Shown: piece by piece, positions 22,567 to 32,648 of the stretch | How the letters are laid out: each line of letters begins with the position of its first letter | How positions within the stretch are numbered: position 1 is the stretch's first letter | DNA from: Candidatus Peregrinibacteria bacterium | GTDB lineage: Bacteria; Patescibacteriota; Gracilibacteria; UBA1369; 2-02-FULL-48-14 | Assembly (NCBI GenBank): GCA_018658105.1 | Contig: JABHVW010000014.1 | Span: 1-64,000, forward strand | Direction: 5' to 3' | Length of the DNA: 64,000 nucleotides | Position numbers and translations under genes: made by a program | Notes under the pieces: generated by a model | Database searches by the model: none | What the model was told of the DNA's origin: nothing | The model's input: only the letters and a program-made list of their open reading frames with translations

Positions 22567-22677
22567 TAAGTCTTTTTCGTCAAGCTATTCCTATTTAGCT
22601 TCTTCACTAGCGCTCCGGGCCGCTAAGCCAAGTCTTACTACCTTTAGAATCTAAATAGGAATAGTGAAAAAGACTTA
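22567..22677. repeat. fold-back element with GC-rich core
   Basis: TAAGTCTTTTTC..CTATTCCTATTTAG vs CTAAATAGGAATAG.GAAAAAGACTTA; loop holds GCGCTCCGGGCCGCTAAGCCAAGTC. Confidence 0.88.
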
Positions 22678-22690
22678 ATTTAGTTCTAAA

Positions 22691-27139: not shown

Positions 27140-27230
27140 GACGAAGATTATTTAGTCTGTCTTCGTCGGATCGGCGGCCTCGGGAGCGCTTCGCTTCCCG
27201 CCCCGGCTTCCTCAGAAAGGCTAAATAATC
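27140..27230. repeat. GC-rich fold-back element with two competing inverted repeats
   Basis: GATTATTTAG/CTAAATAATC (27146-27155/27221-27230) and GACGAAG/CTTCGTC (27140-27146/27161-27167); inner GGGAGCG..CGCTTCCC. Confidence 0.75.
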
Positions 27231-31323: not shown

Positions 31324-32577
31324 CTACTTTAATATTTTTCTGATTTTTAACATACCGGCACTTACCATTATGATTTCACCTGTTAATGCGGCTAGAAGTA
31401 TTAAGAAAAGTCGAACTTCTTGAGTTTCGGGAGTGAGTGATGTGATGAATAATATGCTTGCAGCTGCGAGTGCTAGAAACTCCCATTTTAAAAACCACAT
31501 GTCTTTTTCAAGGCCGAAAAGTGTAATTAAAACTAAGTCGTATAGGTAAGAAACTGCGGCTATTGTGAGTAAAAGTGGAAGCATGAACCACAATGTTGGG
31601 CTGATGAAGTCTGAGCTTGAAACCAAGCTTAGAAGGTAGGGGCCGAGTAGGGAGCCGCTGATGATTGCAAGTGCGCCGAGAGCAATTAAACCAAGTCTAG
31701 TTTTTTTGTAAATTTCTTTGGCATGTTTGAAGTGTTTTTCTTTTAGAGATTGTTTAAAAATTGGCAGAACTGAATACATTAGAAATGTTGAAAGAATCGC
31801 GATTGTTGCAACGGCGCTTAGGGCAAGATTGTATCGACCGTAGTCAGTTTCTGTGAGTGCTTTTGCGGCAAAAAAGCTCGGCATAAAGCGGTAATATGCA
31901 TTGTTGATTATATTTATAATTCCAAAGGGAATAGAGGTGATGAATAGTGATTTGATTAATATGCTGCTAAGTTTGAATTTAAATTTAATGCGATGTCTTA
32001 CGAAAAGCATGCTGATAATTAGGCTGATGATGGCTGCACTTAGTGGTGCCAAGAAGAAAAGTGGAGTGCTGCTTGTTTGTGAAACTAATAAGAAAATGAT
32101 TCCGAGTTCTATGATTCGTCCGAGGGTTATTGCAAAAACTGAGCGGCCCATAAGGTAATTTGCTTGCAGGGTTGCGGTTGCGATGCTGGTGAGATTGTCG
32201 AAAAGAAGTGAGCAGGCGAAGAAAAGTAAGCCGAGAGTGAAGGTGCTGTCGAGGGCGAATTGAGAGTAGGCGAGGCCTGCGACTAAGAAGAAAAATATTG
32301 TTATGAATCTTAAGAACAAGGCGTTTATGAAAAGTTTACCGTCATCAGGATTTGTAGACATTTTACGTACAGTGTTTCCGAAAATCCCTAAGTTTGCAGT
32401 TGTTGATAAAAATAGTGCGAATTCTGCAATTTTACCGTAAAGGCCGTATTCTTCTGGGCCGAGAGCATTTGTTACAAGTTTAATGCTGATTATGCCGATT
32501 GCAATCTGAAGTATTTTGCCAAAATACTGAATGAAAGTGGACCATAGAATTTTGTTTTGTAGGGCACGTGTAATCAT
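31324..32577 (-). CDS. polysaccharide flippase (Wzx/MATE-like)
   Basis: Multi-TM; IKLVTNALGPEEYGLYGKIAEFALFLSTTANLGI. Confidence 0.85.
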   Translation of the reverse strand: MITRALQNKILWSTFIQYFGKILQIAIGIISIKLVTNALGPEEYGLYGKIAEFALFLSTTANLGIFGNTVRKMSTNPDDGKLFINALFLRFITIFFFLVAGLAYSQFALDSTFTLGLLFFACSLLFDNLTSIATATLQANYLMGRSVFAITLGRIIELGIIFLLVSQTSSTPLFFLAPLSAAIISLIISMLFVRHRIKFKFKLSSILIKSLFITSIPFGIINIINNAYYRFMPSFFAAKALTETDYGRYNLALSAVATIAILSTFLMYSVLPIFKQSLKEKHFKHAKEIYKKTRLGLIALGALAIISGSLLGPYLLSLVSSSDFISPTLWFMLPLLLTIAAVSYLYDLVLITLFGLEKDMWFLKWEFLALAAASILFITSLTPETQEVRLFLILLAALTGEIIMVSAGMLKIRKILK

Positions 32578-32648
32578 ATTTTTTATTGTTTTAGAATGCG
32601 CTCCGGGCCGCTAGGCCGAGTCATACCTTCTAAAACAATAAAAAATAT
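32576..32648. repeat. fold-back element with 21 bp perfect arms and GC-rich core
   Basis: ATATTTTTTATTGTTTTAGAA / TTCTAAAACAATAAAAAATAT around TGCGCTCCGGGCCGCTAGGCCGAGTCATACC. Confidence 0.92.

Follow-up and report, generated by a model that had tools for sequence, protein, structure and literature searches.

Two hairpins in the window, the 64,000-nt stretch of DNA analysed here, carry the same GC-rich tip on stems of unrelated sequence, and they are probably copies of a small non-coding core, mobile or repeatedly copied, that makes its stem from the adjacent DNA. The first hairpin consists of a left arm (32576..32596), a 27-nt core termed K on the minus strand (32599..32625, TATGACTCGGCCTAGCGGCCCGGAGCG) and a right arm (32628..32648) that is the perfect reverse complement of the left one. 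The arms, 21 nt each, are AT-rich, 100% complementary and private to the locus, and they enclose a GC-rich tip of 31 nt. Among perfect inverted repeats with loops of up to 60 nt it is the longest in the window, and 20 simulations of the window by a first-order Markov model yielded none above 14 bp. Folded as RNA, the hairpin is much more stable than its dinucleotide shuffles on both strands (z of -7.3 and -6.7), and it is matched by the covariance model at 32585-32639 of the minus strand with 68.5 bits. The second copy spans 22567-22679 and comprises a left arm (22567..22603), with an inner helix at 22585-22603 and an outer helix starting at about 22567, the core K on the minus strand (22611..22637) and a right arm (22646..22679). 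Its 19-bp inner arms (22585-22603 and 22646-22664) are 95% complementary and are extended by the outer helix, and the covariance model matches 22598-22651 of the minus strand with 49.8 bits. The window thus contains exactly two occurrences of the common core, with zero expected, and neither the pattern search nor the covariance model finds a third copy. No empty orthologue is alignable to the two window copies.

The 32.6-kb hairpin occupies the 101-nt gap between two minus-strand genes that flank the element without belonging to it, a C39-like peptidase gene (PF13529, 32679..33383), whose end lies 30 nt from the hairpin, and a flippase-like gene (Polysacc_synt, PF01943, 31324..32577). The start codon of the flippase gene reads CAT at 32575-32577 and two of its bases are overlapped by the left arm. 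An earlier note on this DNA had placed the beginning of an arm at this start codon, and had described perfect 21-bp arms around a GC-rich core nearly matched in an element at 22.6 kb with unrelated arms; the overlap, the full complementarity around the 31-nt tip and the comparison of arms all bear this out. In a minus-strand transcript of 32576-32648 the 3' arm extends to the flippase AUG, and the start of translation could be masked by the hairpin.

The conserved core, TAAGACTYGGSYWAGCGSCCYGGAGCG on the minus strand, is built from two short helices, CUY/GAG and GGCC/GGCC, a 4-nt loop and a 2-nt CG bulge, while an asymmetric internal loop adjoins the arms. Pairing of the whole hairpin is retained in 86.7% of the cells of an alignment of 52 copies, against 63.5% after shuffling and 31-53% if one side is shifted along the other. 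In the inner helix GGCC/GGCC becomes GGGC/GCCC, both sides changing together, and the single-sided changes convert C-G to U-G on the core-sense (minus) strand. Scans against Rfam of the region in the window and of 18 related loci give no match on the core at the gathering score. At two loci (L131:1286 and L179, minus strand 1265) a palindromic insert of 30-odd nt (CCCCACACCTA...TAGGTGTGGGG) splits the core between GAC and TTGG.

Covarying arms, together with U-G/C-G and GC/CG exchanges of the inner helix on one strand, would also be displayed by functional RNA hairpins under selection, such as 3'-end or attenuator structures with a protein-bound apex, whose stems drift by compensatory change and come to look private. 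The position of many intergenic copies just past a stop codon, and of the window copy in an operon gap, fits such a role. This explanation is nevertheless unlikely, as in-frame copies lie mid-way through essential genes, the distribution is patchy even inside a family, the core and one arm are jointly missing from empty orthologues, and perfect stems of at least 40 bp surpass the needs of a terminator.

The reading in which each core makes its own stem is carried by the arms. Inverted arms flank 114 of the 119 copies for which both flanks are available, scoring above the 99th percentile of a null built by pairing the left flank of one copy with the right flank of another; copies without arms are rare. 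Distal arms of different copies within one genome display mean scores of 4.7-6.3, which is background (5.4 between genomes), whereas the two arms of a single copy score 15-36 in multi-copy genomes. In genome G457 most copies examined have private perfect or near-perfect arms with scores of 37-56, and the stems, which include perfect ones of 40-56 bp, are mutually unrelated. Two exceptions are observed. Ten copies in G462 have in common a larger hairpin, about 80 nt long, outside which each has a private inverted repeat of about 10-16 bp; in some lineages the travelling unit may thus exceed 27 nt, with the outermost stem still private. In the L114/L125 subfamily of one genome the arms are common throughout, so that spread of the entire hairpin is possible as well. 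The earlier note had proposed a conserved loop on private arms, and had asked whether the core occurs only twice, is usually armless or has arms that align between copies; the proposal holds, since the core has 11 loci in the source genome and at least 117 stretches elsewhere, nearly all copies are armed, and arms do not align between copies, the G462 inner stems and L114/L125 excepted.

The same two exceptions, and three in-gene copies of near whole-hairpin length, are what an ordinary palindromic repeat family of the Rickettsia or REP kind would leave if it were inserted whole and its stems diverged yet were kept paired. We consider this less probable again than selected RNA hairpins: the fresh-looking stems of G457 are long, perfect or nearly so and unrelated, which slow divergence cannot produce, and one arm is native in LigA, TsaD, IscS and RarA.

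About 12 copies lie in frame inside conserved genes (TsaD, LigA, GatB, ArgRS, ValRS, IscS, RarA, MiaA, PrmC and TlyA), and empty and filled sites can therefore be compared. The LigA gene was compared within a single genus of Saccharibacteria. Its empty orthologues, L356 and L360, have a short loop that leads into [IV]PSE[VI]EVRGE, with 81 nt between fixed motifs. The orthologue filled with a K core (L350) is longer by 57 nt, and those whose core belongs to a second family (L353, L357, L358 and L361) by 60-63 nt. The arm that follows the core in L357, GGTATTCCTTCTGAAGTTGA, is native sequence, present as AGAATTCCTTCTGAAGTTGA in the empty L356, while the arm before the core, TCAACTTCAGAAGAATACC, is an inverted copy of the arm after it. 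Across 11 filled LigA copies the distal arm after the core agrees with the empty sites at 13-18 of 24 positions in seven and at 7-12 in four, and the arm before the core never at more than 9 of 24. The empty orthologues are non-palindromic at the site, and one arm and the core are absent from them together. In TsaD (L145/L282 and L099) the native arm is the one before the core: it codes for the conserved LREE.EK.F helix, and the protein gains about 17 residues. The same pattern is found at the protein level in IscS and RarA, where about 16-17 residues follow a native helix. The comparisons in LigA, TsaD, IscS and RarA thus indicate that the insertion equals the core plus one inverted arm; the native arm appears on either side of the core, so the use of strands is not fixed. 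They lend support, in related genomes, to the suggestion of the earlier note that the arms are an inverted duplication of local sequence, and the comparison with empty orthologous sites that it proposed yields, for LigA, a net gain of the core and one arm.

Not every gene gives the same picture. The insertions in TsaD L095, TlyA L130 and PrmC L110 look nearer to whole hairpins, at sites that are loops of variable length, and the comparison of empty and filled sites is ambiguous in GatB. Parts of both arms look native in GatB L380 and LigA L350, which would be expected if the core targeted the apex of pre-existing palindromes or cruciforms with both arms native, a scheme that accounts for private arms without any copying. 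It is improbable, because the LigA empty orthologues lack both a palindrome at that position and one of the arms, and perfect stems of 40-56 bp are not expected to exist beforehand when simulations produce 14 bp or less per window. In species of one genus the same TsaD and LigA surface loops hold different hairpin insertions (L185-L214, L282-L311 and L350-L379), which makes these genes hot spots. Additional GC-rich cores, such as GCCCGTCGTCACGGGC in L309/L099, occupy the same loops.

The second core family, CACTCRAGGCCGTTCGGCCRAGCTTA, follows the same plan as K (CTC, a 2-nt bulge, a GGCC hairpin, RAG and CTTA) and is present in 14 of the 41 genomes of the Saccharibacteria genus of the LigA sites, to which G466 belongs. 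Its loci in that genus (L305, L282 and L410-L439) have private, inverted arms; arms scoring at least 12 are found in 29 of 30 copies examined, although the null for this figure is contaminated by self-pairs. Among copies in other genomes, L128 alone stood out for a second core within 150 nt. Order-wide matches to the pattern GCGCACTAGGCCACTATG resemble tRNA genes and were rejected as an element.

The two arms of a copy change in concert between species. In LigA, ATACC/GGTAT of L357 is replaced by CAGCC/GGCTG in L358, and similarly both arms of TsaD have changed together between L099 and L145. The LigA stems of L352, L353, L357 and L358 have a small deletion and insertion of the copied arm in common, and since the core of L352 is a different one, this is suggestive of replacement of the core within an inherited stem at this one site. 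At another locus, L174, the right flank is identical to that of L072/L177 while the left flank is different, with the switch at the core; this is due either to recombination between copies or to misassembly. Such a joint, in genomes that are mostly metagenome assemblies, is what chimeric fold-back reads would generate, but it is highly improbable that the hairpins at large are artefacts of assembly or amplification, given the same core in dozens of independent assemblies, the maintained reading frames of essential genes and the covariation of arms between species.

The 11 core loci of the source genome include two tandem arrays. In other genomes a scan of 85,488 species genomes gives at least 117 stretches with the core; among the matches listed, 80 titles correspond to 50 assemblies, nearly all Patescibacteria or unnamed bacteria, with carrier groups that include Saccharibacteria, Kaiserbacteria, Adlerbacteria, Jorgensenbacteria and Nomurabacteria. 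Four loci are titled Bifidobacteriaceae, and these titles are thought to be wrong because the three with measured GC content (L114, L121 and L125) are at 30-36%. All but one of 27 carrier genomes counted contain at least two copies, with a maximum of 35 (up to 2 mismatches). Of 384 genomes sampled from the phylum at least 6 score with the covariance model, a lower bound since no more than 14 candidates were scored per genome, and a search of viral contigs found no core. A distribution that is patchy while the copy number is high suggests that the core is mobile.

The orientation of the core follows base composition. The GC skew of the K-sense strand is negative at 83 of 114 loci and predicts orientation better than gene direction does (30 against 14 of the discordant loci), loci of one genome being non-independent. 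The contig of the window agrees with this rule, its plus strand being G-rich where measured and every copy K-minus. Orientation that tracks GC skew points to an insertion that would be coupled to replication or to single-stranded DNA. A single-stranded copy of the folded core may attach through one of its ends to a target that is itself nicked or single-stranded, probably at the fork of replication. Kept beside the junction by the fold of the core, the free 3' end would then be extended by a polymerase that copies about 15-60 nt of the adjacent target strand, and joining of the product across the nick would complete the insertion. What the filled and empty sites show is a core with one new arm, an inverted copy of the native flank, and hence apparently an inverted rather than a direct target-site duplication. 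The later matching of arms between species may reflect repeated fold-back correction or selection on the hairpin, and the core may be swapped for another inside an inherited stem. The basis of this insertion model is comparative throughout, and the copying mechanism itself we infer from sequence.

Fold-back synthesis has precedents. At yeast DNA breaks it yields short inverted templated insertions as a repair outcome, which are likewise inverted copies of local DNA but contain no conserved inserted core and form no dispersed family (PMC11724301). In Nematomorpha mitochondria inverted repeats lie within coding genes, their arms change in concert and template switching was proposed; in contrast to the elements described here, both arms encode conserved protein, and the passages of that report drawn on here mention no conserved core (PMC6649704). 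The Y1 transposase (PF01797) is absent from five genomes (G000, G001, G195, G241 and G304) and was rejected as the mobiliser, since the source genome lacks it despite 11 loci. The reverse transcriptase (PF00078) is similarly absent from G000, G001 and G005, and an element borne by such an enzyme (retron, group II intron or DGR) was rejected because the source genome has none; no mobilising enzyme was found.

Conserved ends and a direct duplication of the target are the usual marks of a mobile element, and both are what repeat finders seek. Ends made from the target, with the tip alone in common, are thus easily missed by standard searches. REP elements have conserved stems and require Y1 enzymes; REP/REPIN with RAYT are also small, dispersed, strand-polar hairpins for which single-strand insertion is plausible, but the stems described here are private and the source genome is without a Y1 transposase. 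The attC sites of integrons are recombination sites folded from a single strand with partly private stems, of which the base is conserved and the tip variable, the reverse of the present hairpins with their conserved tip and variable stem. Rickettsia palindromic elements (RPE), like those of Wolbachia, resemble the present hairpins in being short, non-coding, multi-copy and patchy, intergenic as well as in frame in conserved genes, and they measure 105-146 bp with the terminal inverted repeats counted as part of the element (PMC2229807). In-frame insertion in conserved protein genes is present here too; a stem sequence common between copies is absent outside the G462 inner stem and L114/L125, and the apical core alone is common to copies on stems that would be private copies of the target. 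MITEs (Correia/NEMIS, RUP and ERIC) are likewise non-autonomous, short and hairpin-forming, but have conserved terminal inverted repeats, not found here, and direct target duplications (PMC2229807), where the LigA sites display an inverted copy of the flank. RPE, REP and MITE each disagree with the element in one or more of the features tested, and it is therefore assigned to none of these classes.

Private stems copied upside-down from neighbouring DNA suggest an undescribed insertion route for mobile DNA; the open PMC papers searched contain no description of such elements in CPR bacteria, and an earlier report elsewhere is possible. The chances are about even that these hairpins form a phylum-wide class of non-autonomous mobile elements with an inverted, not direct, target-site duplication made by one-ended joining and fold-back copying, several interchangeable core families and self-correcting stems. 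If the mechanism holds, a new insertion outcome is added, and it would be directly testable in cultured Saccharibacteria should these carry the core. A route for host proteins to acquire new loops is also illustrated by the copies that lie in frame in TsaD, LigA and GatB.

A third hairpin of the window, intergenic at 27146-27230, has 17-nt AT-rich arms (88%) and a GC-rich tip of 51 nt of unrelated sequence (TTCGTCGGATCGGCGGCC...). It may represent a further core family of this type; the tip has no match in the other sequence examined. The two tandem arrays, L005 (G000 C11:79743-79944) and L010 (G000 C1:219008-219211), have units of 60 and 62 bp, each of which consists of the core, one arm and about 10-12 nt, with the last core degenerate or partial. 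The arrays are most simply explained by unequal exchange or tandem duplication between neighbouring cores, which is preferred to a CRISPR-like reading because all units of one array are near-identical and display no differing spacers.
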